A stretch of 64,000 bases of DNA from Cyanobium sp. NIES-981 (GTDB lineage: Bacteria > Cyanobacteriota > Cyanobacteriia > PCC-6307 > Cyanobiaceae), in the NCBI GenBank assembly GCA_945896675.1, contig CAMDEM010000012.1:1-64000 (forward strand), written 5' to 3'. Shown piece after piece: positions 15,652-36,864 of this stretch. The position numbers were made by a program, and so were the translations under genes. The notes beneath the pieces were generated by a model. The model searched no databases. It worked only from the letters and a program-made list of their open reading frames with translations, and was not told where the DNA came from. The stretch's first letter is position 1, and each line of letters opens with the position of its first letter.

Positions 15652-16458
15652 CTAAAGGCCAGGGCTGCTTTGCATGATGCCACCATCGGCGAAGATCGAG
15701 GTGGCGGTGATATAGCTGGCAGCATCACTTGCCAAGAAGCCCACCACCTTGGCGATCTCCTCGGGTTGGGCCATACGCCCCATCGGGATGGCCGCATTCA
15801 GCTTGGCCAGCAGCTCAGGGTTGTTCATGGTCGAGTCGTTGATTGGGGTGGCCACCGCTCCTGGCCCCACGTTCACGATCGTCACGCCCTTGGAAGCCAG
15901 CTCCACGCCAGCCGTACGGGTCAACATCCGTACACCACCTTTGGCGACGCAATAGGGCGTGTTGTTGGGCATCGGCCAATCCTCATGCACCGATGAAATA
16001 TTGATGATCCGGCCGCCGCTGCCCTGGGCAATCATCTGCTTGGCGGCGTATTGGGTGGCAAAGAAGACACCCCGTAGATTGACGTTCAAGACCTTGTCGA
16101 AGTCATCGGGTGTGGTGTCCAGAATCGACGTGCGCGTCTCGATGCCGGCATTGTTCACCATGATATCGAGCCTGCCGTATTTGCTGACAGCGGTATCAAC
16201 AAGCCGCTGGAGGTCTTCCAGCTTGCCCACGTCAGCCTGCACCCCAAAGCTCGAACCGCCATAGGCACCAATCTCCTCCTCCAGGGCCTCGGTGGCCTCG
16301 GGATGGGAGCGGTAGTCGATCACCACCTTGGCCCCCAGCTCGGCCAAATACTCGACGATGGATTTACCAATTCCGCTGTTCCCACCGGTCACGATGGCAA
16401 CCTTGCCTTGGAGCAGCGTGGAGAGAGCCTTATTGGCAAGGGGGTTGGTGCTGGTCAT
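15652..16458 (-). CDS. SDR oxidoreductase, glucose 1-dehydrogenase-like
   Basis: 268 aa from ATG 16458; the frame continues upstream across the divergent promoter region, but that part is not protein-like. Classical SDR features: T-G-G-N-S-G-I-G for NAD(P), N-N-A-G near residue 105, catalytic Ser in I-N-I-S-S-V-H-E, Y-C-V-A-K (YxxxK), and a C-terminal I-F-A-D-G-G. The segment S-S-V-H-E plus G-P-G-A-V-A-T-P-I-N matches Bacillus-type glucose 1-dehydrogenase, which makes glucono-lactone. The divergent operon encodes an SMP-30 lactonase that could act on that product. Substrate is inferred. Confidence 0.85.
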   Translation of the reverse strand: MTSTNPLANKALSTLLQGKVAIVTGGNSGIGKSIVEYLAELGAKVVIDYRSHPEATEALEEEIGAYGGSSFGVQADVGKLEDLQRLVDTAVSKYGRLDIMVNNAGIETRTSILDTTPDDFDKVLNVNLRGVFFATQYAAKQMIAQGSGGRIINISSVHEDWPMPNNTPYCVAKGGVRMLTRTAGVELASKGVTIVNVGPGAVATPINDSTMNNPELLAKLNAAIPMGRMAQPEEIAKVVGFLASDAASYITATSIFADGGIMQSSPGL

Positions 16459-16620
16459 GGCGTTAGCCCAAGAATGGCTTGTTTCGCCAAACCTAAGGCG
16501 ATTAAGCCAATCCAGTATCAGGTTGCAACAGCTACAGCCTGGAAACCCTGACATAGCCCTGCGATGACACTTCTGCGGGCTTTGCCTACGTTTAATAGAG
16601 ACCCCTAGCAGCCCCCGCCC

Positions 16621-17025
16621 ATGGCTTCCGGTGACATCCGCCGAGCGATCCATAGCGATCGCTTCCCCAAGCCTGTTGCCTCCTACAGCCAAGGATTTCA
16701 AAAGGGCAACACCCTCTTCATCACAGGACAGCTTCCTGTTGATCCCGAAACCAATCTGAAGGTTGGCGATGGGGACATCACAATTGAATCGCAGCAGGTG
16801 ATGCGCAACATGCAGGCCGTGCTCGAAGAGGCAGGCTTTGCTTTTAAAGATGTGGTGAGCGCCACCGTCTACCTCACCGACATCAACAAGCTCGACACCT
16901 TCGATGTCGTTTGGCAGGAGTACTTCCCCGATCCCCAGGCCTACCCCTCCCGGGCTGTTGTGGAGGTGGCGGCCCTGGTTCTTGGCATCCAACTCGAGAT
17001 CTCAGCCATCGCCATCAAGGATTGA
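16621..17025 (+). CDS. ridA: RidA/YjgF family reactive imine deaminase
   Basis: 134 aa, slightly longer than the usual 125-130. It has P-V-A-S-Y-S-Q-G-F near the N-terminus, G-Q-L-P-V-D-P-E in the middle, and the key Arg in Y-P-S-R-A-V-V-E-V with the Glu of Q-L-E-I-S near the C-terminus. Proteins with this Arg hydrolyse 2-aminoacrylate-type imines formed by PLP enzymes. It is the first gene of a six-gene plus-strand run. A 162-bp spacer separates it from the divergent SDR and should hold both promoters; a TTTAAT about 30 bp upstream could be a -10 element, but I see no clear -35. Confidence 0.9.
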   Translation: MASGDIRRAIHSDRFPKPVASYSQGFQKGNTLFITGQLPVDPETNLKVGDGDITIESQQVMRNMQAVLEEAGFAFKDVVSATVYLTDINKLDTFDVVWQEYFPDPQAYPSRAVVEVAALVLGIQLEISAIAIKD

Positions 17026-17034
17026 ACCCCAGCC

Positions 17035-17496
17035 ATGACAGACCCCTTCAGCCTTGCGCCCCAACCTGAGTGGTATTGGCATCTCTGGACCGATGAGCAG
17101 GGCATCAGCCGGCAGCAGAAGTGCTCGATCAGCTCCTTCAGCCTGGGACAGCTGGGCCCCGGAGATTCACCGCAGTTTTCACGCAACCTGCTGGATCAGG
17201 GCAATGCCTTTGTGACCTACCTCCCGGTCGGCTGGACTGCGGACTGGCATGAGAACCACATCCCCAAATGGATCTACGTGCTTCGAGGATCCTGGTCGGT
17301 GGAAAGCATGGATGGCCACAAGGTCGTCATCAATGCCGGCGAATATTCCTTCGGAGCCGATCAAGACTGCATCACAACCCCGGATGGCAAAAGGGGGCAT
17401 CTCTCAGCCCAAGTTGGCGATGAAACCAATGTGCAGCTGATTATTCAACGCAACGACGATGCCTGGCGGGGTGTCAAACCGGGCTTTTTTAGCTGA
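17035..17496 (+). CDS. Cupin-domain protein
   Basis: 153 aa. The central part fits a single small beta-barrel cupin: a metal-ligand-like D-W-H-E-N-H followed by I-Y-V-L-R-G-S-W and a later G-E-Y-S-F-G. The classic third and fourth ligand positions are not obvious, so metal binding is uncertain. Ligand or substrate is unknown. It lies 9 bp after ridA and 21 bp before the SMP-30 gene, so it belongs to this metabolic operon; sugar-derived acids would be a reasonable guess. Confidence 0.7.
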   Translation: MTDPFSLAPQPEWYWHLWTDEQGISRQQKCSISSFSLGQLGPGDSPQFSRNLLDQGNAFVTYLPVGWTADWHENHIPKWIYVLRGSWSVESMDGHKVVINAGEYSFGADQDCITTPDGKRGHLSAQVGDETNVQLIIQRNDDAWRGVKPGFFS

Positions 17497-17517: not shown

Positions 17518-18444
17518 ATGGCGACCCAAACACTCCTCCCCCCTGGCACCGAAAGCTACGACCCCCGTTTTGACAGCCTGATCCTGTTCAACGCTGAATT
17601 GGAGCTTCTCGCCGACGGCTTTCGCTGGCTGGAGGGCCCGGTTTGGTTTGGCGATCACCAGTGCCTGCTGTTCAACGACCTGCCCAACAACCGCACCCTG
17701 CGCTGGAGTGAGCGCCATGGGGTTTCCGTCTTCCGGGAAACCTCCGACTACGGCAATGGCCAGACCCGGGACCACCAGGGACGCCTGATCACCTGCCATC
17801 ACCGCAGCCGCTGCCTAACCCGTGGGGAACACGACGGGATCACCACAACCCTGGTGAGTCAGGCCGACGGCAAACCGCTCAACGCACCCAACGACGTGGT
17901 GGTTAAGAGCGACGGCAGTATCTGGTTTAGCGATCCGCTCTATGGATTGATCAATGACTACGAAGGTGGTCGCCAACTGTCCGAACAGCCTGCGGCCCTC
18001 TATCGCCTCGATCCGGCTACCGGGGAATTGAACCGGATGGCCTCCGATTTCGACGGCCCCAATGGCCTGGCCTTTTCGCCGGATGAGCGCAAGCTCTATG
18101 TGGCTGAGTCTGGAGCGCCGGGCGCGCTGGAGCCCCGGCAATACATCCGCGTGTTTGATGTCAGTGAGGATGGCTGCTCCCTCTCCGGCGGTGGGATTTT
18201 CCACAAAATCACACCGGGCTGGGCCGATGGCTTCCGGGTGGATGAGCATGGCAATCTCTGGTGCGGCGCCGGCGATGGCGTGCACTGCATCGCTCCCGAT
18301 GGCACCCTGCTGGGCAAGGTGCTCGTACCGAAGCGCGTCTCCAATCTTTGTTTCGGAGACCGATTCCACAGCCGTCTGTTCATCTGCGCCTCCTCATCCC
18401 TCTACGCGCTGTTTACCAACACCCGCGGAATTCAGCGCCCCTAA
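17518..18444 (+). CDS. SMP-30/gluconolactonase family lactonase
   Basis: A 308-aa six-bladed beta-propeller of the gluconolactonase/luciferin-regenerating family. The metal and catalytic positions are present: Glu in W-L-E-G-P-V-W, Asn in N-A-P-N-D-V-V, Asn in G-P-N-G-L-A-F, and Asp in W-A-D-G-F-R-V. It would hydrolyse glucono-1,5-lactone or another sugar lactone. There is no signal peptide, so it is cytoplasmic. It shares a divergent regulatory region with the glucose-dehydrogenase-like SDR through its operon, which supports a glucose to gluconate route. Confidence 0.88.
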   Translation: MATQTLLPPGTESYDPRFDSLILFNAELELLADGFRWLEGPVWFGDHQCLLFNDLPNNRTLRWSERHGVSVFRETSDYGNGQTRDHQGRLITCHHRSRCLTRGEHDGITTTLVSQADGKPLNAPNDVVVKSDGSIWFSDPLYGLINDYEGGRQLSEQPAALYRLDPATGELNRMASDFDGPNGLAFSPDERKLYVAESGAPGALEPRQYIRVFDVSEDGCSLSGGGIFHKITPGWADGFRVDEHGNLWCGAGDGVHCIAPDGTLLGKVLVPKRVSNLCFGDRFHSRLFICASSSLYALFTNTRGIQRP

Positions 18445-18762: not shown

Positions 18763-19179
18763 ATGCGCTTGATTTCCCAACTCGAACTCGCTGACTGTCG
18801 GGCGATCTTGGCAGCCGCCCACGCCGAAGCCGCCCAGCGCCATGCCGTGGTGAGCGTGGCCATCGTGGATGGCGGCGGCCACCCCCTCCTGCTCGAACGG
18901 GGTGATGGGGCCAGTCCCGCCAGTGCGGCGGCAGCCCTGGCCAAAGCCCGCATGGCCGCCCTCAACGCCAAGTCCACCGAGGCGATGGAGGCGGCGATCA
19001 ATGGGGAGCGACCTGGCCTGATCCAGCTCGCTGGAGCCCTTGATGGGCCCGCCGTTGCGATGGCAGGGGGGGTGCCGCTACTCCATCAAGGGGTCTGTCT
19101 CGGTGCCATCGGCATTTCCGGCATGACTCCAGAAGTGGACACCGCCATTGCCACCGCTGGGGCAGCAGCCCTACCTTGA
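18763..19179 (+). CDS. GlcG/HbpS-like (DUF336) protein
   Basis: 138 aa covering one complete DUF336 domain: V-V-S-V-A-I-V-D-G-G-G-H-P-L-L-L-E-R near 28-45, A-K-A-R-M-A-A-L-N, and the C-terminal G-A-I-G-I-S-G. Relatives bind haem or small acids (HbpS) or sit in glycolate and PduO operons; their biochemistry is poorly known. There is no signal peptide, so it is cytoplasmic here, unlike secreted HbpS. It starts 7 bp after the Nif11 gene and abuts the VOC gene. Confidence 0.82.
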   Translation: MRLISQLELADCRAILAAAHAEAAQRHAVVSVAIVDGGGHPLLLERGDGASPASAAAALAKARMAALNAKSTEAMEAAINGERPGLIQLAGALDGPAVAMAGGVPLLHQGVCLGAIGISGMTPEVDTAIATAGAAALP

Positions 19180-19190
19180 ACCCTCCAGCC

Positions 19191-20165
19191 ATGGCTAATC
19201 CCCACATCGACACCATCGGCTTCACCACAGCTGATGGGGAAGCCAGTGCCAGCTTCTTCACCGAGTGCCTTGGCTTTCAACGCGCCGGAGCATCCCGGAT
19301 TGTCGATGGCGGTCCCTACGGCGACCTGGTAGGCCTTCCCGGCGCCCGTTTCAAGCTGTTGCGTCTGACGATCGGCGCGGAAGTGCTGGAGCTCACCGAG
19401 ATTCTGGATCCGGGCCCCGGAGCCCGGCCAGGCAGACCCATAGCGGCCGACTCGCAAAGCACAGACCGCTGGTTCCAGCACATCTGCCTGGTGGTCAACG
19501 GCATGGATGACGCCTTGGCTGGCCTGCAGCTCGCCTTCAAGGCCGGCACGATCACCCCGATCTCCTCGGCGCCCCAGCGCCTACCGGACTGGAACACCGC
19601 CGCCGCAGGCATCGTCGCCTACAAATTGCACGATCCAGAGGGCCATCCCCTAGAACTCCTGCAATTCCCCCTAGACAAAGGCGAGGCCCGTTGGCATGGA
19701 GATGCTCCTGGACCGGTCCTGGGCATCGACCACAGCGCCATCGGCATCGCCGACACCGCCGCCAGCTGCCGTTTCTACCGAGAGCTGCTGGGCCTGGCCG
19801 CCGGTGGTGACGGCGTCAACTCCGGGCCGGAGCAGGATGGCCTCGATGGCATCACGGGCAGCAGGGTTCACATCACCGGCCATCGCTGCCCTACGGGCGC
19901 CGGCGTCGAGTGCCTCGACTACCGCGAACCCCCAGGCGGACGCCCCATGGCCCCTGACCAGGGCATCCAGGATCTGGCCCATTGGCAGTTGCGCCTGCGG
20001 GTCGCCAACCTTGATGAGATCAGGGCAAAGGCCCAAACCTATGGCGGGACATTGATCTCCCCGGGGATTGTCGAACTGGGCGACCAGGCCAAGTTGATCG
20101 GGTCCCGCCGGGCCCTGCAGCTGGCCGATCCCGATGGCCACCGGCTTCAGGTGCTGGAGGCCTAG
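19191..20165 (+). CDS. Two-domain VOC (glyoxalase/dioxygenase fold) protein
   Basis: 324 aa from ATG 19191; a TTG at 19176 overlapping the previous stop is an alternative. It has two VOC half-modules: I-D-T-I-G-F-T-T-A-D with F-F-T-E-C-L-G-F at residues 4-30, and L-G-I-D-H-S-A-I-G-I with F-Y-R-E-L-L-G near 175-200. E-G-H-P-L-E-L-L-Q and D-G-H-R-L-Q-V-L close the first and second domains and carry the usual metal-ligand Glu/His region. The reaction is unknown. It is last in the ridA operon, and its stop codon lies in a short duplicated sequence (20159-20204). Confidence 0.82.
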   Translation: MANPHIDTIGFTTADGEASASFFTECLGFQRAGASRIVDGGPYGDLVGLPGARFKLLRLTIGAEVLELTEILDPGPGARPGRPIAADSQSTDRWFQHICLVVNGMDDALAGLQLAFKAGTITPISSAPQRLPDWNTAAAGIVAYKLHDPEGHPLELLQFPLDKGEARWHGDAPGPVLGIDHSAIGIADTAASCRFYRELLGLAAGGDGVNSGPEQDGLDGITGSRVHITGHRCPTGAGVECLDYREPPGGRPMAPDQGIQDLAHWQLRLRVANLDEIRAKAQTYGGTLISPGIVELGDQAKLIGSRRALQLADPDGHRLQVLEA

Positions 20166-20204
20166 TTCCCGGGCCCGGGGCCTAGTTCACGGGCGCAGGC
20201 CTAG
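20159..20204. repeat. Short direct repeat spanning the VOC stop codon
   Basis: A 16-bp unit GGCCTAGTTC(C/A)CGGGC occurs at 20159-20174 and 20179-20194, with one mismatch and a 20-bp period. A third partial copy (GGCCTAG) at 20198-20204 holds the stop codon of the convergent glgX. The first copy includes the stop of the VOC gene. It looks like a local slippage or duplication event in the 35-bp convergent spacer. Confidence 0.7.
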
Positions 20205-22375
20205 GCAGGGGCTGGGGGGAGCTCCACCATCAACACCCGGATGGAGCGGGGACCCACTTCAACCTCGCTCCCCAGGAGAGCGGGCCCCGATCCCCAGGGC
20301 GAGATGTCATCGGGGCCTGGGCTGGAGGTGTCAATCCAGTGGCGCCACGGCCGATCACCGGCGTCGGGCTGGGGCACCCCAAAGCAGAGGGGTTGCCACC
20401 AGGCATTCACCATGGCGTGCAAGCGGTAGCGACGGGAAATGCTGGTCAGCGAGACCGCAAACGAGCGCGACTCCTCGCCCCAATCGGGCTGGTTGGGCAC
20501 CACCCCATGCCAGCTGACGGCGTTATGGCCCAGGAGCTCGGTGAGGGTGAACGACTGATGGTCCACCACCACATCCCGGCGCATCCGAAAGGCAATCAGC
20601 TCTCTCACAAACCGGCGCAGGTCTGTCGCTGTATCCAATTGATTCCAATCGAACCAGCTCAGGGCCGTGTCTTGGCAATAGGCGTTGTTATTTCCCATCT
20701 GGGTGCGTCCCACCTCATCGCCCATGCCCAGCATGGGCGTACCCAAGGAGAGAATGAGCAGGGTGAAAAAGTTGCGGCGCTGCCTGAGGCGTAGGGCCAA
20801 AATCTCAGCATCATCGGTTGCACCTTCGTTGCCACAATTCCAACTGGCGTTGTCATCGCTGCCATCCCGGTTGGCTTCACCATTGGCCCCGTTGTGCTTG
20901 CCGTTGTAGGCGACCACATCTGCAAGGGTGAAGCCGTCATGGCAGGTGATGAAATTGATGCTGACCTCGGCGGCACGGTTTTCATAGCCATAAATATCTG
21001 GACTGCCAATCAAGCGCTGGGCCACCTTGTCCGCCATGCCTGGATCACCTTTGAGGAAATGGCGCACGTCATCGCGAAAACGGCCATTCCATTCCTGCCA
21101 GTTATCCGCAACGAAACTGCCCACCTGGTACAGACCGGCGGCATCCCAAGCCTCAGCAATCAACTTGGTTCCCGCCAAGACAGGGTCGGTATCGATATCC
21201 CAAAGGATTGGTGGCGATGGTGACGGCTCCCCTGTCTCATCACGGGAGAGCACGGAAGCCAGATCAAAGCGGAAACCATCCACGTGCATGTGCTCCACCC
21301 AGTAGCGCAAACTGTGGCGAATCATTCGCCTAACCACAGGATTATTTGCATTCAAGGTATTAAAGCAACCCGTATAATCAGCGTAGGTACTCTGATCCTC
21401 TCCCAACAGATAATAATCGGAATTAGCAATGCCGCGATAGCAAAAAGAAGGGCCATCAGCATTACCCTCGGCCGTGTGGTTAAACACCACATCAAGGATC
21501 ACCTCAAGGCCGGCCCGATGCAGGGCCTTCACCAGATCTCGAAATTCATCGAGGGGGCCCATTGGATCAGGACGAGCGCTGTAACCGTGATGGGGCACAA
21601 AAAAGGAAATGGGTTGGTAGCCCCAGTAATTCGGCCTGCCCCCCGGTGCATCCAAGGGATCAAACTGAAACACCGGTAGCAGTTCCACCGCCGTAACCCC
21701 TAAATCCTTGAGGTAGGGAATTTTCTCGATTAGCCCTCCGTAGGTACCGGCCTTTTGCGGCGTCACACCGGAGCTTGGATCGGCGGTGAAGCCGCGCACA
21801 TGCAGCTCATAAATCACCGTGTCCCGGCTGGGGCGCCTGAGCGGTTGATCCCCTTCCCAGTCGTAAGCGCTGGGATCAACCACCACGCTCCTCATGGCCA
21901 CCGCGCTGGGCTGACTCGGCTCACGCCGATAGCCCTCGGGCATCACCAGGGCCAGGCCATAGGGATCCAAGAGCAAATTATTGGAATCGAAGCGCAGCCC
22001 TTTGGATGGATCCCAGGGGCCATGCACGCGATAGCCATACACCTGGCCTGGGCTCAGTCCAGCTACAAAACAGTGCCAATAGTGGTAGGTGCAGTAGGTC
22101 TCCCCCTCAAGCACCAACACCCGGAAAGGCTCTGGGGATGATGGGCTCTCAAACAGGCACAACTCCACCTTGGTGGCGTCCCTGGCATAAAGACTGAAGT
22201 TGACCCCACCCGGCAGGGGGGTTGCCCCCAGGGGCGCACTTGATCCTGGAGACAAGGCAAGTTGGGGCACAGGTGCAACGCGCCCCAGGGCGCAGCGCGG
22301 GCTAACCAATGATGGCGCAAATAAGCCGAGTCCCGGTAACTTGGGGTCACAGCTTGTTGCCGGTCTTGTGGACAT
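20201..22375 (-). CDS. glgX: Glycogen debranching enzyme (isoamylase type, GH13)
   Basis: About 724 aa from ATG 22375; the frame stays open to 22621, but upstream sequence overlaps the divergent DoxX gene. An N-terminal CBM48-type domain (P-L-P-G-G-V-N-F-S-L-Y-A) precedes a GH13 barrel with D-V-V-F-N-H-T-A-E-G, the nucleophile Asp in G-F-R-F-D-L-A, the acid Glu in I-A-E-A-W-D, and the transition-state region C-H-D-G-F. The G-D-E-V-G-R-T-Q-x-G-N-N-N-A-Y-C pattern is typical of GlgX. It hydrolyses alpha-1,6 branches of trimmed glycogen. The middle part appears less GC-rich than the surrounding genes. Confidence 0.93.
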   Translation of the reverse strand: MSTRPATSCDPKLPGLGLFAPSLVSPRCALGRVAPVPQLALSPGSSAPLGATPLPGGVNFSLYARDATKVELCLFESPSSPEPFRVLVLEGETYCTYHYWHCFVAGLSPGQVYGYRVHGPWDPSKGLRFDSNNLLLDPYGLALVMPEGYRREPSQPSAVAMRSVVVDPSAYDWEGDQPLRRPSRDTVIYELHVRGFTADPSSGVTPQKAGTYGGLIEKIPYLKDLGVTAVELLPVFQFDPLDAPGGRPNYWGYQPISFFVPHHGYSARPDPMGPLDEFRDLVKALHRAGLEVILDVVFNHTAEGNADGPSFCYRGIANSDYYLLGEDQSTYADYTGCFNTLNANNPVVRRMIRHSLRYWVEHMHVDGFRFDLASVLSRDETGEPSPSPPILWDIDTDPVLAGTKLIAEAWDAAGLYQVGSFVADNWQEWNGRFRDDVRHFLKGDPGMADKVAQRLIGSPDIYGYENRAAEVSINFITCHDGFTLADVVAYNGKHNGANGEANRDGSDDNASWNCGNEGATDDAEILALRLRQRRNFFTLLILSLGTPMLGMGDEVGRTQMGNNNAYCQDTALSWFDWNQLDTATDLRRFVRELIAFRMRRDVVVDHQSFTLTELLGHNAVSWHGVVPNQPDWGEESRSFAVSLTSISRRYRLHAMVNAWWQPLCFGVPQPDAGDRPWRHWIDTSSPGPDDISPWGSGPALLGSEVEVGPRSIRVLMVELPPAPA

Positions 22376-22433
22376 CACCGTTGTGGAGCTGTTGGTACCA
22401 ACGGCACAAACAGACCTGGCCGAAGGGACCCTG

Positions 22434-28243: not shown

Positions 28244-30970
28244 TTAGCCGGAGGGATAACGGCTGAGCTGGTTAATCATCTTGGCCGTCATGGCACTCCA
28301 GCCCGTCTGGTGGGAAGCCCCCACACCACTACCATTATCACCGTGAAAATATTCGTTGAACAGGATTAAATCCTTCCAGTTGGGGTCATTCTGAAACAGA
28401 TCCACTTGGCCATTGAAGGCGCGGCGACCCTCACCATCCCGGCGGAAGATGCCAACCAAGCGCTCTTCTAGCAGCAGGGAAGCCTCCCAGAGGTTGACCC
28501 AATGGCCCGAACCGGTTGGGAATTCCACCTTGAAGCTGTCACCAAAGAAGTGGGAATACTTCTGTAGCGACTCGATCAACAGGAAGTTGATGGGCATCCA
28601 TACGGGACCGCGCCAATTAGAATTACCGCCAAACATGGCAACGGGGCTGTCGGCAGGGCTGTAGGCCAAGGTTTCATGGTCGACCCCCTCGGTATAGCTA
28701 TAGGGATTCGATTCATACACCTTGGAAAGCCCTCTAATTCCATAGGGAGAGAGGAACTCCTCCTCATCAAACAAGCGCTGGCAAATGCGCCTTAACCTGT
28801 CTTCAGGAACCAGGGTGAAAAGGATTCGATCATCGTGCCAGCGGCCCAGATTATGCTCAAGCCATGTGGGCGTGGTGCGCTCATGCACAAACCACTTCAT
28901 GTTGCTTAGAATATCAAGTACCGGCAGACGGTCAACGGTTTCCCGATCAAAACTTGAAACAGCCAACAGGGGAATCAATCCAGAAAGCGAACGGGTACGC
29001 AGATAATCACAACTACCATCTGGCCGCTTGATCACATCGTAATAGAAGCCATCATCATCATCCCAACTCAAGTAGCCCCGGGTTGCAGACGTATTGAGAG
29101 TAATCGCAAGCTGGGTAAAATCACAAACAAAACGCTCACAAATATCGACATACTCAGGCTCCTCCCGACTCAATTCAACTGCAATATTCAGCAGATTCAA
29201 GCTAAGGGAAGCCATCCAGGCGGTGCCATCACACTGCTCAATGTGGCTGCCATCGGCAAGGGGGAAACGGCGATCAAAGACGGCAATATTATCGAGGCCA
29301 AGGAAGCCTCCCTCAAAGACATTGTCGCCTGAGCGATCATTGCGATTCGCCCACCAGCCGTATTCAAGCAGTAATTTGCGCAGGGACGATCGCAGAAAGG
29401 CTTGATCGGCAACTCCAGATTGCTTGCGATCGATCTGATAGATCCGCATCGCCGCCCAGGCCCCAATCGGCGGGTTGGGATCGGAAAGCGCCCATTCATA
29501 GGCTGGGGTCTGGGCACTCGGAGAGGTGAAGTGTGGCGATCGCAGCAGCATGCATTGCTCCTTCGCCGTGGCTGGATCGATCACGGCAAAAGCCACCGCG
29601 TGGAACATCAAATCCCACTGGCAAAAGTAGGGGTACTCCCACGAATCCGGCATCGAAATGATGTTGTGGGCATGGAGACGACTCCAGAGGGCCGTATCGG
29701 TTTGCCAGCGATTACTCGGAGGAGGGGGCTGGGTTGGGTCCCCCTCCAGCCAACGCAGCACACTCCAGCCGTAGTACTTCTTGCACCACAGCAAACCGGC
29801 CAAGGCCGTGGAATGGATCAGGCGATCATCTGCCGTGAGGCCTGGCAGAAGATGCTCTTGGAAAGCATGCCAATCGGCCTCCCGCTCCACAAAAATCCCA
29901 TCGAAGCCAGCACCAAACGGTTCAACCGCTGGCCCATCAGCCGTTGGGCTATCAGCTGCTTGGGGGCGCAGACGCAGCTGCACGCACCATTCTTCGCCAG
30001 GGGCCAGATCCCTCTGCAGCAAACGGGCCGCCTTGGTGCCAAATCGAGCCGGATTGATGGCACCCGCCTCTCCGTCCACCACATACCGATGGAAACCATC
30101 CTTCTGGAAGGGGGTGGGGTTGGGCTGGTGATACAGACGATCCAGGTTGGTTTCGTTGTCGGTAAACAGCCAATCGCCCTGCTCCCGGCAGTGCAATGCA
30201 TAGGCCTCCAAATGGGCCAAGGCTGGAATCGCCACAGCATCCTTTGACACCCCCTCATTTGAGACAGCCATGGGCTGGCATGTCTGGCCTGGATAACCCC
30301 AGGACCAGGTATTCCGCATCCAAATCGTGGGCAACAACGTGATTGGCGCTGTTGCCGGCCCCCGATTCACAACCCTGATCTGAATCAGGATGTCGGTGGG
30401 TGATGCCTTGGCATATTCAATAACAACATCGAAGTAGCGATTGTCGTCAAAGATGCCGGTATCAACAAGCTCGTATTCAGGCTGGTCCCGGCCGCGACGT
30501 CCATTTTCATCGACCAAGTGCTGGTAGGGAAATTCAGCCTGGGGGTACTTGTAGAGCCCCCGCATAAAGCTGTGGGTCGGGGTATTCGCCTGATGAAAGT
30601 AGTAGTCCTTGATATCTTCGCCATGGTTCCCCTCAGGGTTTCCCAGGCCAAAGGGACGTTCCTTCAGGATCGGATCAACGCCATTCCAAAGGGCCACGGA
30701 AAAGCAGAGGCGGCACTGGTCATCACACAGACCAAGCAGGCCGTCCTCCCCCCAGCGATAGGCCCGCGAGCGGGCATGGTCATGGGGAAAGGAGGTCCAG
30801 GCATTGCCATCGGCGGAGTAGTCCTCCCGCACCGTGCCCCACTGGCGCTCGGGCAAGTAACTGCCCCAGAGAGCCCAGGGTTGGGTCTCGCTATCACGCT
30901 CGAGAAGCCGTTGAACTTCGGCAAGTTGGCTGTTCATGACAGGGCCGCCGGAATCGGGGGTGCTGGTCAT
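28244..30970 (-). CDS. GH63-like (MGH1-type) glucosidase
   Basis: 908 aa. The N-terminal half is beta-rich (W-G-S-Y-L-P-E-R-Q-W-G, E-D-Y-S-A-D-G-N-A-W) and the C-terminal half is an (alpha/alpha)6 barrel with W-D-L-M-F-H-A-V-A-F, S-N-W-R-G-P-V-W-M-P-x-N and F-N-E-Y-F-H-G-D-N-G. This is the layout of GH63/mannosylglycerate-hydrolase-like enzymes, which cleave alpha-glucosides or glucosyl/mannosylglycerate. No signal peptide. It sits between two GMC oxidoreductase genes (ATGA overlap with the upstream one), so its product may feed them. Base composition looks less GC-rich than the housekeeping part of the window. Confidence 0.88.
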   Translation of the reverse strand: MTSTPDSGGPVMNSQLAEVQRLLERDSETQPWALWGSYLPERQWGTVREDYSADGNAWTSFPHDHARSRAYRWGEDGLLGLCDDQCRLCFSVALWNGVDPILKERPFGLGNPEGNHGEDIKDYYFHQANTPTHSFMRGLYKYPQAEFPYQHLVDENGRRGRDQPEYELVDTGIFDDNRYFDVVIEYAKASPTDILIQIRVVNRGPATAPITLLPTIWMRNTWSWGYPGQTCQPMAVSNEGVSKDAVAIPALAHLEAYALHCREQGDWLFTDNETNLDRLYHQPNPTPFQKDGFHRYVVDGEAGAINPARFGTKAARLLQRDLAPGEEWCVQLRLRPQAADSPTADGPAVEPFGAGFDGIFVEREADWHAFQEHLLPGLTADDRLIHSTALAGLLWCKKYYGWSVLRWLEGDPTQPPPPSNRWQTDTALWSRLHAHNIISMPDSWEYPYFCQWDLMFHAVAFAVIDPATAKEQCMLLRSPHFTSPSAQTPAYEWALSDPNPPIGAWAAMRIYQIDRKQSGVADQAFLRSSLRKLLLEYGWWANRNDRSGDNVFEGGFLGLDNIAVFDRRFPLADGSHIEQCDGTAWMASLSLNLLNIAVELSREEPEYVDICERFVCDFTQLAITLNTSATRGYLSWDDDDGFYYDVIKRPDGSCDYLRTRSLSGLIPLLAVSSFDRETVDRLPVLDILSNMKWFVHERTTPTWLEHNLGRWHDDRILFTLVPEDRLRRICQRLFDEEEFLSPYGIRGLSKVYESNPYSYTEGVDHETLAYSPADSPVAMFGGNSNWRGPVWMPINFLLIESLQKYSHFFGDSFKVEFPTGSGHWVNLWEASLLLEERLVGIFRRDGEGRRAFNGQVDLFQNDPNWKDLILFNEYFHGDNGSGVGASHQTGWSAMTAKMINQLSRYPSG

Positions 30971-32487
30971 CGAATCAACGCCTTGAGTTCAGCTGCGATA
31001 CGGAGGGCATTGGCAATCACCGTGAGGCCTGGGCCCACCGCCGGGCAACTGGGGAACATACTGGCATCGGCAATCGTGAGATTGGCCACCTCATGGCTGC
31101 GGCCCTTGAGGTCCACTACTGACGTGGCTGGATTCACGCCCATCCGACAGGTTCCACAGGCATAACCCACCACCGAAAGGGGCGCCTCTCCCCGGGGATG
31201 GGTGGGGGCTGTTTTCACCACATGGGTGAGGGGGTCAGCCTCCACCTCCTTGAGGGTGTCAACCCAGCGATAGACCAACCGGTCATGGGCTTCGCGGTTG
31301 TTGTGAAGGTAATTCACCTGAATGCGATCACCCCGCAGGGATACCCGGTTGTGGCGATCGGGCAACACCGGGCTCAGGGCCCACCAACTCACCGAGCGGG
31401 CAGCCAACTGCTCAAGGCCCATGTTGGGCAGCAATTTGGTCACCAAGGAGAGCACCGGTGGGGATTCGGAAAACAGGGCGTCCTGGAGAACCCCTCCACC
31501 GGTCTGGAGGGTTCCCAGGGGGAAGGACACGTTTTTGTCGCCCCAGAGGAAATCACTCACCCCAAGACTGCGCGGATAACGGCCGGAATTGGGCTCGGCC
31601 GCCAACTGCAAGATCGAGGTGAGCTGGGGATTCATCAGGTTGCGGCCCACCTGATCGGAACCATTGGACAAACCCCGGGGATGGTGATCGGTGGCTGAAC
31701 GCAGCAGAATCGCAGCGGTGTTGATGGCCCCGGCGGCCAGCACCACATGGTGGGCCATAAACAGCCAGTTTTGACCGGCCACGTTGGCTTCCACGCCGCG
31801 CACCTCGGTGCCGGATGGGTTGACATGCAGCCGGGTCACCTCGGTGCCGGTGCGGACCGTGATGGTGCCCTTGGGCTCGAGGGCCCGATCAACACCAAAC
31901 AATTCAGCATCGCCAGAGGGATCCACCGGCGATTGCGACCAGCTCAAGGGGAGGTCGTAGGGATGGGTGCCATGGCGTTGCAGAGCCAAGCGAAGCTCCT
32001 CCATGAAGGGCTCAATCGGCTTGGGAGCCAGGCCATAGTCCCCCTGGCGGTTGGGCTCGGTGGGATCAACACCAGAGCGTCCATGGACGCGATAGCGATC
32101 CTCGGCCTGGGTATACCAAGGGGCCATCTCCCCATAACCCAATCCCCAGGCAGGAGCATGGGCCTCCTGCAGGGCAAGGCCTTCGAACTCTTGTTCGCGC
32201 ATGCGTTCCAGCACGCCGCCCCAGATCTTGGTATTGCCGCCAAGGGCGTACAGGGTCTGGGGGGAGAACGGATCACCGTCCGTGCCAAACCACTGTTCTT
32301 TGGGGTGGTAACGGTCCTTGCGGAACAGACCCACGTCGGCCACGTTTTGCTCTTCGATGGGGAGCTGGACCCCCCGCTCGAGCACAAGCACCTTGAGGCC
32401 GGAGCCGGCCAGGTCGCCAGCCAAGGTGCCCCCAGCGGCCCCCGTTCCCACCACAATGATGTCGTAGGTGATGTCATCAATGATCAT
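30967..32487 (-). CDS. GMC-type flavoprotein with lost catalytic pair
   Basis: 506 aa with a good FAD motif (V-G-T-G-A-A-G-G-T-L, residues 13-22) and overall similarity to the other GMC protein. However, the catalytic His position reads V-G-Y-A-C-G-T-C-R-M-G (Tyr at about 442), and the partner Asn/His is Gly at about 485 (A-V-G-P-G-L-T). It lacks the Cys cluster of its paralogue. It probably still binds FAD but may not oxidise alcohols in the standard way; a partner subunit or altered chemistry is possible. It lies 48 bp after cox subunit III, in the same run. Confidence 0.82.
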   Translation of the reverse strand: MIIDDITYDIIVVGTGAAGGTLAGDLAGSGLKVLVLERGVQLPIEEQNVADVGLFRKDRYHPKEQWFGTDGDPFSPQTLYALGGNTKIWGGVLERMREQEFEGLALQEAHAPAWGLGYGEMAPWYTQAEDRYRVHGRSGVDPTEPNRQGDYGLAPKPIEPFMEELRLALQRHGTHPYDLPLSWSQSPVDPSGDAELFGVDRALEPKGTITVRTGTEVTRLHVNPSGTEVRGVEANVAGQNWLFMAHHVVLAAGAINTAAILLRSATDHHPRGLSNGSDQVGRNLMNPQLTSILQLAAEPNSGRYPRSLGVSDFLWGDKNVSFPLGTLQTGGGVLQDALFSESPPVLSLVTKLLPNMGLEQLAARSVSWWALSPVLPDRHNRVSLRGDRIQVNYLHNNREAHDRLVYRWVDTLKEVEADPLTHVVKTAPTHPRGEAPLSVVGYACGTCRMGVNPATSVVDLKGRSHEVANLTIADASMFPSCPAVGPGLTVIANALRIAAELKALIR

Positions 32488-32535: not shown

Positions 32536-33114
32536 TTATTGCCAGACATAAATCAGCAGGAACAGGATGATCCAGATCACATCCACGAAGTGCCAGAACA
32601 GCGAGGTGGCCTCGACGCCCTGCTCCCCACCGACGTAATTGCCAGGAATAAAGGACTTCACCAACATCAAGCCCATGAGACCAATACCAGTCGCCACATG
32701 CAGACCGTGGAAGCCGGTGAGGAGGTAGAAGGTACCTCCAAAGGTGCCTGAGGTGAAGCCAAACTGCAGGCCACTCCATTCCACATATTGGCCATAGAGG
32801 AAGTAGGCACCCATGGCCATACTCAACAGCCAAAACCCTCGGAAGAGGGCCATATTCTCTTTGGCCTTAAAGCGCTCAGCCAAATAGATGGTGCCGCTGC
32901 TAGAAACCAGCACAATGGTATTGATCAGGGGCGCATGAACCTCTAACCCTTGAACTCCCGAGGGCAGCCAATTAAGAGCGGAGGTTTTGAGTAGGGCATA
33001 GCCGCTAAAAAATGCCAAAAAGATGACACTTTCCGAGCAAAGGAAAATGATGAAGCCGGTGAGATTGTGGCTCTGATGGCCGTGCTCTTGACTGGGGGGA
33101 TTGGAGAGGGTCAT
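32536..33114 (-). CDS. ctaE: Cytochrome c oxidase-type subunit III (ARTO)
   Basis: 192 aa with five transmembrane helices, the short form of subunit III found in cyanobacterial and other small heme-copper oxidases. The end carries H-F-V-D-V-I-W-I-I-L-F-L-L-I-Y-V-W and an earlier E-S-V-I-F-L-A-F-F helix, both typical. It stabilises subunit I and may help proton uptake. The order ctaC-ctaD-ctaE is standard, with only 3 bp between ctaD and ctaE. Confidence 0.94.
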   Translation of the reverse strand: MTLSNPPSQEHGHQSHNLTGFIIFLCSESVIFLAFFSGYALLKTSALNWLPSGVQGLEVHAPLINTIVLVSSSGTIYLAERFKAKENMALFRGFWLLSMAMGAYFLYGQYVEWSGLQFGFTSGTFGGTFYLLTGFHGLHVATGIGLMGLMLVKSFIPGNYVGGEQGVEATSLFWHFVDVIWIILFLLIYVWQ

Positions 33115-33117: not shown

Positions 33118-34788
33118 TCAGGCCTCCTGCAGGGCTTGCTCATAGGACTGCTGGTTTTCCACCAGGGGCAGGCCGGTTCCATAGCCATAGGGACGGGCAA
33201 TCACCGTGGGGACATTCTCACCAAAGTTGTCCTCGGCGGGAGGTGAAGGCAACAGCCACTCCAAGCCAATGGCATTCCACGGGTTGGCGGGGGCTTTCTC
33301 GCCCCGCACCCAGGAACTCAGCATGTTGAGCAAAAAGGGGATGATCGAAACCCCGAGCAAAAAGGCCCCCAAACTGGCGAGCACATTCCAGAAGGCAAAT
33401 TCCGGGTCATAGGAGGAGACGCGCCTGGGCATGCCCATCAACCCCAAGGGGTGCATGGGCAGGAAGTTGAGGTTGGCACCCACAAAGGTGAGGAGGAAGT
33501 GCACCTTGCCCAAGCCCTCGTAGGGCATCCGGCCCGTGAACTTGGGGAACCAGTGGTAGATGGCTGCAAAGATGCCCATCACGGCGGCCCCGTAGATCAC
33601 ATAGTGGAAGTGGCCAACCACAAAATAGGTGTTACTGACGTGAATATCAACAGGCACGGTGGCCAACATGATGCCAGTGACGCCGGCAAAAACAAAATTA
33701 AACAAGCCGCCAAGACAGAAAAGCATCGGCGTGGTGAGCCTCAATTTGCCCCGCCAGATGGTGCCAAGCCAAGCGAACACCTTCACGCCGGTTGGCACCG
33801 CAATCAGCATGGTGCTGAACATGAAGAAGTTGCGCATCCACTGGGCTACGCCACTGGGAAAAATATGGTGAACCCAAACAACCAAACCCAAGCCAACAAT
33901 CAGGAAGGAGGCGACAGCCACATAGACATAGCCAAACAATGGCTTGCGGGAATAGACAGGGAAAAGTTCTGAGAAAATGCCAAAGACCGGCAGAATGATC
34001 ACATAGACGGCCGGGTGGGAATAGAACCAGAAAAAGTGTTGGTAGAGCACCGGGTCACCACCACCTTCAGGCTCGTAAAAACTGGTGCCAAAGGTGAGAT
34101 CCATCAACAGCATCACCGCCCCTCCGGTGAGGGCAGGCAGGCCAATCAACTGCAGGCTCTGGGCAGCCAAAGCTGTCCAACAGAAGATCGGCATGCGAAA
34201 GAAGCCCATGCCTGGGGCACGCATGCGCAGGATCGTGGTGACGAAATTCACCGCGCCCATGATCGACGACACCCCCGAGAGGGCCACAGCCGTGAGCCAT
34301 AAACCCTGGCCATTGACGAAATGGCCGAGGGGGTTCTGAATACTCACCGGCGGATAGGACCACCAACCGGAATAGGCAGGTCCTCCCGGCACAAAGAAGC
34401 TGGCAATCAACAGGGTGCCAAAAATAGGCACCAACCAAAACGCCACGGCATTCAACCGCGGGAACGCCATATCCGGTGCACCAATCATGGTGGGGATCAA
34501 CAGGTTGTTGAGCCCATTCAGCACCGGGAAGATGAAGAGGAACAACATGATCGTTCCGTGCATCGTGTAAATGCCGTTGTACACGGTGCGATCCACCAAA
34601 TCGGCCTCCGGCGTGATCAATTCACCCCGGATGATCATGGCCAGCAGGCCACCAATCATGAAATAGAAAAACGCCAGCACGATGTACTGAATACCAATCA
34701 CCTTGGCATCGGTGTTGAACGTGAAATAGCGTCTCCAGGAGCCTTCTTCTGGGTGGGCGTAATTCGGGGGGAAGCTGGCGGAAGTCAT
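33118..34788 (-). CDS. ctaD: Heme-copper oxidase subunit I, A2 type (ARTO)
   Basis: 556 aa, twelve helices. Haem and CuB ligands are visible: H77 (T-M-H-G-T), H258 in the helix VI motif F-Y-S-H-P-A-V-Y, the H-H pair in V-H-H-I-F, and V-G-H-F-H-Y near the C-terminus. The active-site Tyr is Y262. Helix VI reads Y-S-H-P rather than G-H-P-E-V, the A2-type variant in which a Tyr-Ser pair replaces the D-channel Glu. It reduces O2 to water in cytoplasmic or thylakoid membranes; with the CuA-less subunit II, a quinol or unusual donor is likely. Confidence 0.95.
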   Translation of the reverse strand: MTSASFPPNYAHPEEGSWRRYFTFNTDAKVIGIQYIVLAFFYFMIGGLLAMIIRGELITPEADLVDRTVYNGIYTMHGTIMLFLFIFPVLNGLNNLLIPTMIGAPDMAFPRLNAVAFWLVPIFGTLLIASFFVPGGPAYSGWWSYPPVSIQNPLGHFVNGQGLWLTAVALSGVSSIMGAVNFVTTILRMRAPGMGFFRMPIFCWTALAAQSLQLIGLPALTGGAVMLLMDLTFGTSFYEPEGGGDPVLYQHFFWFYSHPAVYVIILPVFGIFSELFPVYSRKPLFGYVYVAVASFLIVGLGLVVWVHHIFPSGVAQWMRNFFMFSTMLIAVPTGVKVFAWLGTIWRGKLRLTTPMLFCLGGLFNFVFAGVTGIMLATVPVDIHVSNTYFVVGHFHYVIYGAAVMGIFAAIYHWFPKFTGRMPYEGLGKVHFLLTFVGANLNFLPMHPLGLMGMPRRVSSYDPEFAFWNVLASLGAFLLGVSIIPFLLNMLSSWVRGEKAPANPWNAIGLEWLLPSPPAEDNFGENVPTVIARPYGYGTGLPLVENQQSYEQALQEA

Positions 34789-34793
34789 GGGGA

Positions 34794-35732
34794 TCAGGCG
34801 TCGTGGGGCAGGGTGTTAGATCCGGGAACATTGACTTGGGGAGGAGGTGCCGGCACCACCGTTGCCCAGCCAGGACTCTTCAATTTTTTGCGATCTTCGT
34901 ATTGCTGTACGGCGTCACTGATTCCCGCCTGGAGGGGCTGGGAAGCTGACTGCTTGAGCCATTGCTGGTAGGTGTCCAAACTCTCCACAACCACATCAGC
35001 TTGATTGGCTGCAAACCAGGTTCCGCTGAACTGGGAATCCCGCAAACGATACCGACCTTCCCGGGTGGGGGTGAGGTTGAAATTGATCGCCCGTCCAGGG
35101 ATCACATCCTGCTTCAGGCGGAAGGCCGGGATATAAAAGCCATGGATCACATCTTCAGATACCAATCGGAAGGTGACCGGCTGATCAACAGCCAGATGGA
35201 GCTCAGTAGACGAAACCTTGGCGCCGGGATAGCGGAACTCCCAGGACCACTGCCTGGCAACCACCTCGATCTGCTCGGCTGGCAGCCGGTCGCCGGGATA
35301 CCCCCCCTGGTCTTCGGCGGGCTGGGCCAGATGGATGTGCTCCATCGGACCCACTGAGCCCAGGGTCTCTCCCACCCGCATCGCATAGACAGCAATCCCC
35401 ATCACAATGACCAGGGGGATCACGGTCCAAATCACCTCCAACTTTGTATTGCCCTCAATGGGCACGGCATCGCTCTCGTCGTACTTATCGGCGCGATGCA
35501 TCACGATCACCCAAAGCATCACCGCCGAAACCCCGCCAAAGACAAAGGTGCCTAGGGCCGTTTCAAAGCTGAACAGTCCATCAACCAAGGGCGCTGCGGT
35601 GGACGCCTGCACCGGCAGCCAGTGGTAGGCCTGCTGGCCCATCCACCAACTCAGGGCGATGAGAGCGCCAACGGCGAGGGCCAAGCCCACCACGGCAGGC
35701 AACTTGACACTGGATGGCGGGGCGTTGGTCAT
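34794..35732 (-). CDS. ctaC: Oxidase subunit II lacking the CuA site (ARTO)
   Basis: 312 aa with two N-terminal helices and a periplasmic cupredoxin domain. The His before the CuA loop (D-V-I-H-G-F) is present, but the loop normally reading C-S-E-x-C-G-x-x-H-x-x-M is D232-S-Q-F-S236-G-T-W-F240-A-A-N243, so both Cys, the His and the Met are replaced at exact spacing. CuA cannot form and cytochrome c is unlikely to be the direct donor. This is the known mark of the cyanobacterial alternative respiratory terminal oxidase. The start overlaps the DUF2231 gene stop by 4 bp. Confidence 0.94.
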   Translation of the reverse strand: MTNAPPSSVKLPAVVGLALAVGALIALSWWMGQQAYHWLPVQASTAAPLVDGLFSFETALGTFVFGGVSAVMLWVIVMHRADKYDESDAVPIEGNTKLEVIWTVIPLVIVMGIAVYAMRVGETLGSVGPMEHIHLAQPAEDQGGYPGDRLPAEQIEVVARQWSWEFRYPGAKVSSTELHLAVDQPVTFRLVSEDVIHGFYIPAFRLKQDVIPGRAINFNLTPTREGRYRLRDSQFSGTWFAANQADVVVESLDTYQQWLKQSASQPLQAGISDAVQQYEDRKKLKSPGWATVVPAPPPQVNVPGSNTLPHDA

Positions 35733-36367
35733 GGCAAGGCCACCTTGAGGTCAGCGCCGGCAGCCAAGAGCTGGTCGGCAGCGATATGCACACCGAACTC
35801 CCCTGCTAATTCAGCGCCCAGGGTGCCATGCAAACCAATGATCAGAAACATGGCCAAGCCCACCAACAAATAGAGCCACTGCACCTGGCGACCCATGTCT
35901 TTGCGCCAAAGAAAGCGCTGGTAGCCACGCCAAACGGTCATGGCCACAATCACCAGCAGGATCACCACCCCCCCAACCCCATGCCACAGCATGGTTTCCA
36001 TGCTGTGGAGGCCGATCGCGCTGGTTACCCCGGGCAAGGGGACGGCCAACAACATCTCAAAAAAACCTGCCGCCACGGTGAAAAACGTGACGCCGCAGCA
36101 AGCCAGCAGGTTGTACCAACCCACATCGTGGAATCCCTGGCGGGTCACCGGCAGGGCCAGAAAGCGAAAGACTCGCTTTTCCAGGGGATAAAGGGCACCG
36201 GCAATATCAAAGGCAATCGCGATCACAAACAACCCAATGGTGAAGTGCACCAGATTGGGGTGGATCGGCAGGCTGTAGGGGAGGCCATTGGATCCCAGCT
36301 CAGGGGCAAGCTGCTGGATCGGCGATTGACCGGGGAGGAATTGAAGACTCATCAGATGAAGACCCAT
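35729..36367 (-). CDS. DUF2231 membrane protein, oxidase-associated (second)
   Basis: About 212 aa from ATG 36367, which overlaps the upstream stop by one base; a later ATG (S-L-Q-F) is possible. About four to five helices with conserved His at I-H-P-N-L-V-H-F, L-H-S-M-E-T-M-L-W-H and L-H-G-T-L-G. Such intramembrane His pairs could ligate haem b, but this is not shown. It is encoded directly before ctaC. As far as I recall, DUF2231 genes accompany this oxidase type in other cyanobacteria. A role in electron delivery or assembly is inferred. Confidence 0.75.
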   Translation of the reverse strand: MGLHLMSLQFLPGQSPIQQLAPELGSNGLPYSLPIHPNLVHFTIGLFVIAIAFDIAGALYPLEKRVFRFLALPVTRQGFHDVGWYNLLACCGVTFFTVAAGFFEMLLAVPLPGVTSAIGLHSMETMLWHGVGGVVILLVIVAMTVWRGYQRFLWRKDMGRQVQWLYLLVGLAMFLIIGLHGTLGAELAGEFGVHIAADQLLAAGADLKVALP

Positions 36368-36864
36368 CAGACCAGGCCCGCTCGCATGGCTTCCACCACC
36401 TTCACGGTGTGGAGTCCGTACACCCAAATCAACTGATTTCCCAAGGTGACTTGGACCACAATCAGGGCGCTAAGCAAGCCACCTGCCCCCAAAAAGGGCA
36501 AGGGCAATTGCTTGGGATCTTTGCTGCGAATCACATAGCGCCAAGCCGACATGGCCGAAAGAATTCCAGCCAAAGACCAGCCAATCGTGCTGTGCAAATT
36601 GAGGATATCGCTAGAGGCTCCGTAGGGATTGGCCAAGCCAGCTTCGACTTGGCCAAAAATAATCGCCACGAAAATTGCCGCCGTCGCAAACAGCAAATTC
36701 CAAAAGCTCACTTCGAACAGGGCTGGCTTCCTGGCAAAGATTCCAATGCAATCAAAAACGAACGTGATCAGCCCCATGGCAATCACAAAGTGCACAACGA
36801 TTGGATGGATGGTATCCATCCAAGGGAGGTTGTGATCGTTGAGCGGCGGAAGCAGCTCAAACAT
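36367..36864 (-). CDS. DUF2231 membrane protein, oxidase-associated (first)
   Basis: About 165 aa from ATG 36864 (M-F-E-L-L-P-P-L-N-D-H); the frame is open to 36939, but the extra residues are unlike a protein N-terminus. Four helices with I-H-P-I-V-V-H-F near residue 20, L-H-S-T-I-G-W near 90 and G-L-H-T-V-K near the end, the same His pattern as the next gene, so the two are paralogues. It heads the minus-strand run that continues through the oxidase to the HlyD gene. Confidence 0.75.
   Translation of the reverse strand: MFELLPPLNDHNLPWMDTIHPIVVHFVIAMGLITFVFDCIGIFARKPALFEVSFWNLLFATAAIFVAIIFGQVEAGLANPYGASSDILNLHSTIGWSLAGILSAMSAWRYVIRSKDPKQLPLPFLGAGGLLSALIVVQVTLGNQLIWVYGLHTVKVVEAMRAGLV

Follow-up and report, generated by a model that had tools for sequence, protein, structure and literature searches.

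Alternative respiratory terminal oxidases (ARTO) are present in many cyanobacteria and, to our knowledge, their task in vivo is poorly defined. Type-1 ARTO/Qox operons, such as coxB3-A3-C3 of Anabaena and ctaC2-D2-E2 of picocyanobacteria, carry two open reading frames (ORFs) ahead of the three oxidase genes and encode a subunit II without the CuA site; the passages on these operons in PMC10119275 and PMC6616624 mention no GMC gene. The Anabaena operon alr2729-alr2730-coxB3-coxA3-coxC3, with its CuA-less subunit II, is considered in a passage of the latter source to encode a plastoquinol oxidase (PMC6616624). By our own reading, its first two genes presumably encode DUF2231 proteins. A likewise organized operon is located in the DNA studied here, a stretch of 64,000 nucleotides from Cyanobium sp. 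NIES-981 (assembly GCA_945896675.1, contig CAMDEM010000012.1, positions 1 to 64,000), referred to as the window, which is part of a 67.9-kb contig in a 1.97-Mb assembly. It differs from type-1 ARTO in that a degenerate GMC gene (GMC2) follows ctaE, followed in this lineage by the genes of a GH63-type hydrolase and of a second GMC protein (GMC1).

This work demonstrates that the neighborhood of sugar genes and CuA-less oxidase is conserved, as the preliminary description of this DNA had supposed: the order oxidase-GMC2-GH63-GMC1 recurs in six other picocyanobacterial genomes. Two conserved modules are involved, and their linkage is real. Judged from its sequences, module A is a type-1 ARTO/Qox operon plus a GMC flavoprotein (DUF2231a-DUF2231b-ctaC-ctaD-ctaE-GMC2), and module B comprises GH63, GMC1 and a dehydrogenase of the SDR family, together with SMP-30, a two-domain VOC protein, a cupin and DoxX. 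We see about an even chance that the locus joins an ARTO operon with a non-catalytic GMC2 to an intracellular sugar-oxidation set that would feed plastoquinone and the ARTO. The oxidase is known; a catalytically retired GMC partner appears to be new, as we found no description of it. A published link of a GMC or DUF2231 gene to ARTO was not found among titles and the beginnings of abstracts, a scope outside which most subscription journals fall. A group of GMC oxidoreductases, which may or may not be GMC2, is mentioned for Prochlorococcus and marine Synechococcus in PMC4734447.

The searches covered 244 cyanobacterial genomes, including 24 from the family of the window (f1), with limits of E ≤ 1e-3 for GH63, ≤ 1e-80 for GMC1, ≤ 1e-15 for DUF2231b and ≤ 1e-100 for GMC2. 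GH63 was detected in 48 genomes, GMC1 in at least 22, DUF2231b in 59 and GMC2 in 24. Within f1, GH63 and GMC1 occur together in 4/24 genomes and DUF2231b in 8/24, all eight with GMC2, and the other sampled member of the window's genus (G239) has no match to any of the four genes at these limits. Counts for GMC1 and SDR are lower bounds, as at most 5 or 6 GMC candidates and at most 10 SDR candidates were scored per genome. Linkage expectations assume random placement and ignore kinship, and the distance and E-value limits were set after the matches had been seen. For the GH63 linkage counts, 59 of the 67 GH63 rows were used, eight short fragments being left out. The window aside, fetched loci (L numbers; genomes are given as G numbers) represent 57 of 58 long GH63 copies (all but G016) and 64 of 68 DUF2231b copies (60 as loci of their own and four within GH63 loci; all but G233, G080, G093 and G076). 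Recurrent neighbors were counted by ORF clustering across 134 loci, where the labels MIP-type and debranching-type were assigned by eye. The GMC tree holds 73 of 75 sequences (two shorter than 480 aa were left out) and the residue counts cover 74 of 75. The group labels GMC1 and GMC2 were assigned in both from locus and best match; therefore, the independent test of GMC2 linkage is the genome search with GMC2 and its distance to DUF2231b.

All genes of module A are located on the minus strand. The first encodes the membrane protein DUF2231a (36367-36939; Pfam PF09990, 121.3 bits), followed by DUF2231b (35729-36400, the ORF extending to 36427; PF09990, 130.4 bits), CtaC (subunit II, 34794-35732; Pfam COX2 and COX2_TM), CtaD (subunit I, 33118-34788; COX1, 504 bits) and CtaE (subunit III, 32536-33114; COX3, 99 bits). 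CtaC lies behind DUF2231b in 58 of the 60 fetched DUF2231b loci, one of them (L130) a fragment, and GMC2 lies behind CtaE in 20 of the 60. We confirm the earlier assignment of a CuA-less oxidase with two DUF2231 proteins: CtaC of the window has no Cys at the CuA site, and neither has any of the 61 aligned CtaC sequences that cover it (62 aligned, window included). The YSHP motif of CtaD (YSHPAV in the window), which we take to be the A2-type motif, is conserved in 60 of the 61 sequences aligned, and a second CtaD, 54% identical, is encoded elsewhere in the genome of the window. By analogy with the described operons, the oxidase would be a plastoquinol oxidase of the type-1 ARTO.

Both DUF2231 proteins carry four invariant histidines, namely His45, His50, His116 and His177 in DUF2231a (61/61) and His56, His61, His149 and His214 in DUF2231b (62/62, numbering of the 232-aa ORF). 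The predicted structure of DUF2231b consists of four long helices (mean pLDDT 67), and the helix positions in this model suggest that the invariant histidines of both proteins may lie on one membrane face. Such a placement would fit a metal, heme or quinone site, which is possible for each of the two proteins. DUF2231 was also considered as a recognizable cytochrome and rejected, the fold search with this modest-confidence model giving no match at E ≤ 0.001 (best E 0.86).

GMC2 (30967-32487, minus strand) is encoded 3' of ctaE and is a GMC flavoprotein homolog without the catalytic His and Asn and without the Cys-rich segment. The genome search detected one copy in each of the 24 genomes, located 3.7-5.5 kb from DUF2231b in 23 of them; for the 24th (G195, L163), the contig starts with ctaD-ctaE, ending 10 bp before GMC2. 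GMC2 and DUF2231b thus co-occur in 24/24 genomes (Fisher test, 2e-17, uncorrected for kinship). GMC2 also follows the oxidase where GH63 and GMC1 are missing, for instance in G205, G189 and G225 and in the f1 loci L088-L091, which argues that it belongs to the oxidase. The catalytic Asn is kept in 0/28 GMC2 sequences, the Cys-rich segment in 0/28 and the catalytic His in 5/28, the latter forming one branch (L099, L102, L111, L119 and L121); the protein of the window has Tyr and Gly at the two catalytic positions. Residues of the FAD-binding part, such as the GxGxxG region and the Glu that follows it, are kept in GMC1 and GMC2, and the two groups lie on opposite sides of a branch with 100/100 support. 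The best relatives of both in the PDB are the catalytic subunits of FAD-dependent glucose and fructose dehydrogenases (6a2u, 7w2j), with E 3e-38 for GMC1 and 1e-17 for GMC2, GMC2 differing from them by the lack of both catalytic residues.

The preliminary description had placed two GMC flavoproteins of a sugar-oxidizing, quinone-reducing type in this block. For GMC2 this does not hold: it is probably not a sugar oxidase, since the catalytic Asn is lost in 28/28 and the catalytic His in 23/28 sequences, and the option that both GMC proteins oxidize sugars was dropped on the same catalytic residues. The simplest reading is that of a putative flavoprotein which has taken on another function at the oxidase, most likely as an accessory or electron-transfer subunit. 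A flavoprotein homolog whose catalytic residues are gone and which was never found away from this oxidase (24/24 copies across 244 genomes) offers a direct and testable lead on ARTO. More speculatively, and with a rather low probability in our judgment, GMC2 could be an unrecognized flavin subunit of type-1 ARTO. In this view, a retired sugar oxidase would dock on the quinol oxidase along with both DUF2231 membrane proteins and their four His each. Soluble donors (GMC1, NAD(P)H or a metal couple) would reduce it, and the complex would act as a substrate:oxygen oxidoreductase and not as a plain quinol oxidase.

The same features would also suit a plasma-membrane metal reductase/oxidase as the main function of the oxidase, GMC2 and the DUF2231 pair, reducing Fe(III) before uptake, with the sugar genes sharing the locus or feeding reductant unspecifically. 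A flavoprotein homolog devoid of the residues for alcohol oxidation beside two four-His membrane proteins resembles a reductase, and a passage of PMC10119275 states that inactivation of ctaD2/ctaE2 in Synechocystis impairs Fe(III) reduction and uptake and that low-iron Prochlorococcus carry ctaC2-D2-E2. We nevertheless consider this function unlikely, as it leaves unexplained why GMC1, SDR or SMP-30 stand beside quinol oxidases in several loci, with a cytochrome bd in one of them (L229), and the fold search with the modest-confidence DUF2231b model offers it no match at E ≤ 0.001.

Unlike GMC2, GMC1 (26584-28224, minus strand; GMC dehydrogenase-like) retains the catalytic His and Asn (His481 and Asn524 in the window) in 46/46 sequences, in register with the solved glucose and fructose dehydrogenases (6a2u, 7w2j). 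The FAD motif, the catalytic His and the second His/Asn that mark catalytic GMC oxidoreductases are found in all 46. A Cys-rich segment stands at a similar place as in these dehydrogenases, but its spacing is C-x2-C-x2-C-x4-C (residues 221-232 in the window) versus C-C-x4-C-x3-C in the catalytic subunits with an Fe-S cluster; the first, second and fourth Cys are conserved in 46/46 sequences and the third in 42, being replaced by Phe in four (L037, L126, L151 and L159). Among the 23 window proteins scanned, no Pfam family of the small subunit or cytochrome c of these dehydrogenases was found. Outside f1, 8 of the 23 GMC1 copies from genomes with both genes lie within 8 kb of GH63 (0.10 expected) and nine within 15 kb. 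Two further neighbors were observed, namely a glycine-zipper protein of about 120 aa next to the GMC1 subclade with Phe in place of the third motif Cys (L126, L037, L151 and L159) and a Rieske-ferredoxin reductase adjoining GMC1 in L126, L159, L161 and L162.

The GH63-type, alpha-glucosidase-like hydrolase between the two GMC genes (28244-30970, minus strand; 908 aa) scores 33.2 against Pfam Glyco_hydro_63 (cut-off 22.4) and 72 against MGH1-like_GH (27). Its predicted model (pTM 0.87) matches the fold of the Chaetomium glucosidase (E 8.5e-19) and of YgjK (E 6e-14); it thus shares profile and fold with GH63 alpha-glucosidase I and YgjK and differs from them by an identity of 11-13%. Asp581 and Glu873, a candidate catalytic pair, are invariant in 35/35 aligned sequences. 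Glucosylglycerate, one of the substrates proposed earlier, is not favored. The MGH1-like domain (72 bits) is shared with the mannosylglycerate and glucosylglycerate hydrolases, but these differ in length: the crystal model of MhGgH ends near residue 446 (PMC6608630). In place of a single barrel of about 450 aa with a cap, the 908-aa protein of the window fits the longer GH63 glucosidases, and no mannosyl- or glucosylglycerate hydrolase appears among the 50 listed fold matches of its model. A role as glucosylglycerate hydrolase was hence rejected. A second GH63 gene, 46% identical, was observed at G000 C15:4025-6649 (L069), with none of the other genes of the block matched in the surrounding 15.3 kb.

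The SDR gene (15652-16458, minus strand; glucose-1-dehydrogenase-like) was started at the ATG from which the protein of G175 aligns over all 268 aa. Its product passes the ‘glucose 1-dehydrogenase’ subfamily model NF005559 (230.7 versus a cut-off of 215) and stays under the narrower NF006493 (250.2 versus 420); the protein is a predicted glucose 1-dehydrogenase. Outside f1, 15 SDR matches reach E ≤ 1e-70, and 14 of these have GH63 or GMC1 at a distance of at most 10 kb (0.18 expected); with the limit at E ≤ 1e-55, 19 of 36 do. For the SMP-30/gluconolactonase-like lactonase (17518-18444, plus strand; Pfam SGL, 151 bits), 13 matches were obtained outside f1, of which the best four are no more than 10 kb away from GMC1, unlike the remaining nine. 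The remaining recurrent members are the two-domain VOC protein of glyoxalase fold (19176-20165, plus strand), which recurs next to GMC1, the small cupin-like protein (17035-17496, plus strand; Cupin_2 22.8 bits, under the gathering score of 27.2) and the DoxX-like membrane protein (22434-22865, plus strand; Pfam DoxX 44.8 bits on the longer ORF 22200-22865), which is seen again next to GMC1/SMP-30.

Across the 134 loci, the neighbors that recur are an NDH-2-like gene (24 loci, a count to which no genome-wide expectation belongs), VOC (12), a MIP-type aquaporin (9), DoxX (5, besides the window), cupin (5, including the window), a debranching-type enzyme (5), the glycine-zipper protein (4) and the Rieske-ferredoxin reductase (4). 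The type-II NADH dehydrogenase-like (NDH-2-like) gene is found in 15 of the 60 DUF2231b loci and also in L164, L166 and L170. Its counterpart in the window (12760-14166, plus strand; Pyr_redox_2 162 bits; NDH2_C 21.8, under the gathering score of 27.7) is, as far as gene order can tell, an extension of the block. The limits given in the preliminary description leave this recurrent gene outside.

GlgX (20201-22621, minus strand; TIGR02100, 677.5 versus a cut-off of 640.9) had been counted into the set. L165 is the only one of the picocyanobacterial loci compared that has GlgX, which is probably an interloper, not a general member. GlgX, HlyD, TolC and the 127-aa ORF described below were rejected as core parts, since they occur only in some close relatives; none of GlgX, HlyD and TolC is found in the fetched L032 and L166, and L164 and L170 have HlyD and TolC.

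Alternatively, the locus could be a storage or stress-recovery cluster for the breakdown of a compatible solute or glycogen, its oxidases and oxidoreductases co-regulated and sharing no electron path. GH63/GMC1 loci elsewhere do contain MIP-type aquaporins, debranching-type enzymes (assigned by eye, with Pfam confirming two relatives) and the glycine-zipper protein, and GlgX occurs in the window, L165 and L159. However, SDR and GMC1 accompany GH63 more often than debranching enzymes do, and the oxidase stands again beside GMC1, SMP-30 or VOC in other families, which makes a pure storage cluster improbable in our judgment.

The contiguous order DUF2231ab-CtaCDE-GMC2-GH63-GMC1 is found in seven picocyanobacterial genomes, namely the window and L031, L032, L164, L165, L166 and L170, among whose records are Synechococcus sp. 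CCY 0621 and HJ21-Hayes. Most complete is L166, where GMC1 is followed by DoxX, VOC, HbpS, SMP-30, cupin, RidA, SDR, one channel-like gene and NDH-2, without GlgX, HlyD and TolC. Both modules are near each other in another order in G221 (GH63-GMC1-SDR-SMP-30 at 1.238-1.245 Mb, oxidase and GMC2 at 1.250-1.256 Mb), and GH63 and SDR lie about 5 kb in front of DUF2231ab-CtaCDE in L167, GMC1 not being seen in that stretch. Partial joinings in distantly related cyanobacteria comprise VOC, NDH-2, SDR, GH63, DUF2231ab, CtaCDE and GMC1 in G203 (L037); NDH-2, CtaCDE, DUF2231ab, GH63, cupin and VOC in G129 (L035); CtaCDE, DUF2231ab, NDH-2, VOC, DoxX, SMP-30, SDR and GMC1 in G125 (L126); and CuA-less CtaCDE, cupin, SMP-30, VOC, DoxX, SDR, a GDE/MGH1-like hydrolase and GMC1 in G060 (L244 and L151), with no DUF2231 in the stretch around the CtaCDE of L244. 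Chance co-location of unrelated modules in a small genome, which their separation in most genomes would suit, is very unlikely given the joined order in seven genomes, the proximity of the modules within about 20 kb in G221, the arrangement of L167 and the partial joinings in other families.

Module B is also represented in other phyla. A span of about 11 kb takes in GMC1, VOC and GH63 in Terriglobia (L179), a proteobacterial metagenome-assembled genome (MAG; L181), Nitrospira (L182), an acidobacterial MAG (L222) and Opitutia (L240), and GMC1 and GH63 in Rokubacteria (L194). A Limisphaerales MAG (L229) has the order GH63-GMC1-MFS-SDR-CydA-CydB. In total, 11 of the 73 non-picocyanobacterial GH63 loci have GMC1, four of them cyanobacterial and seven from other phyla. 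In the midpoint-rooted GMC tree, the picocyanobacterial GMC1 is sister to that of L229 (100/99) and the pair joins other phyla (92/85); in the SDR tree, rooted likewise, the SDR of the window groups with L229 (100/100), which forms a long branch. These trees, together with the occurrence of GMC2 in f1 genomes without GH63 and GMC1, suggest that module B was gained by lateral transfer and settled behind module A.

Several observations weigh against the proposed connection of the two modules. Outside f1 the modules are mostly apart: GH63 lies within 8 kb of DUF2231b in 2/29 copies, both from family f11 (0.11 expected, p = 0.006), GMC1 within 8 kb of DUF2231b in 1/20 and within 15 kb in 2/20 (0.15 expected, p = 0.01), and GMC2 near GH63 in 0/8. 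The independent joinings are few, and those of L037, L126, L151 and L159 share one GMC1 subclade and may hence be one event. GMC2 is missing from 35 of the 59 genomes with DUF2231b, and GMC1 is not visible in 62 of the 73 non-picocyanobacterial GH63 loci, many of which have short flanks. The identity of the SDR gene varies, as those of L037 and L151 are 39% identical to the SDR of the window and fall into a separate clade. In G175 the block is contiguous and no SMP-30 was detected at E ≤ 1e-25. The cytochrome bd neighborhood comes from the single MAG L229, which among the loci fetched from L031 on is the only one with CydA. SMP-30, VOC, cupin and DoxX of the window lie on the strand opposite to the oxidase and thus do not share one transcript with it, and the 88.5% completeness of the window's genome counts on the same side. 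What speaks against the whole linked set proposed at the outset is that most sampled genomes keep the modules apart.

Gene content, linkage, the missing CuA Cys and the fate of the catalytic residues, lost in GMC2 and retained in GMC1, can be read from the DNA; substrate, FAD occupancy, quinone reduction, coupling to ARTO and the role of GMC2 are proposed on that basis. In the sugar-to-oxygen route that we favor, GH63 would cleave an alpha-glucoside and release glucose or a sugar like it, the SDR would oxidize this sugar to a lactone with formation of NAD(P)H, and SMP-30 would open the lactone. GMC1, with FAD and perhaps an Fe-S site, would oxidize either this sugar or a subsequent one, and further intermediates may be handled by the VOC and cupin proteins. 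Plastoquinone would receive electrons straight from GMC1 and, via NDH-2, from NAD(P)H, and the ARTO would oxidize plastoquinol and pass them to oxygen. No signal peptide was noticed by eye in the sugar enzymes; sugar oxidation would thus be cytosolic. That GH63, GMC1 and SDR neighbor a heme-copper quinol oxidase and, in one MAG, a quinol oxidase of another kind, cytochrome bd, raises the probability that they are functionally linked. A chain of this kind in some picocyanobacteria would be a plausible and concrete electron source for ARTO, suggesting that an internal sugar is burnt by a dedicated chain.

All genes named in the preliminary description were recovered at their places with the ORF list and Pfam/NCBIfam scans, and its names for SDR, GlgX and GH63 agree with the models that these proteins pass. 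The one-strand run with gaps mostly below 50 bp was likewise retrieved, the eight gaps from DUF2231a to the HlyD-type adaptor being -34, -4, 5, 3, 48, -4, 19 and -4 bp. These gaps are compatible with one transcript across 36.9-25.0 kb. Promoter-like sites in this span are at chance level (6 versus 4.9 expected) and terminator-like sites number 23 (14.6 expected), 22 of them within genes.

The region further contains the genes of RidA, the cupin, an HbpS-like protein, the two-domain VOC protein and DoxX, which the earlier text did not list. The RidA-family protein (16621-17025, plus strand) is also found in L166 and the HbpS-like protein (18763-19179, plus strand) in L165, L166 and L168. Downstream of GMC1, a HlyD-type adaptor (25256-26587, minus strand; TIGR03794, 171.9 versus a cut-off of 156.2, thus above the cut-off of an NHLP bacteriocin-export model), the 127-aa ORF (24993-25376, minus strand) and a TolC-like gene (23390-25120, plus strand) follow. 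The three stay together in L164, and L170 keeps HlyD and the TolC-like gene with no match for the 127-aa ORF. Two adjoining channel-like membrane genes (14171-15645, minus strand) lie between the SDR and the NDH-2-like gene. The first has the potassium-filter sequence TVGYGD and matches Pfam Ion_trans_2; the second has a degenerate TTVGTT and no Pfam match, and is retained next to SDR in L032 and L166. Finally, positions 6561-12355 (plus strand) encode two periplasmic-binding proteins, two permeases and two ATPases, by eye resembling an ABC importer of the branched-chain amino-acid/urea type.

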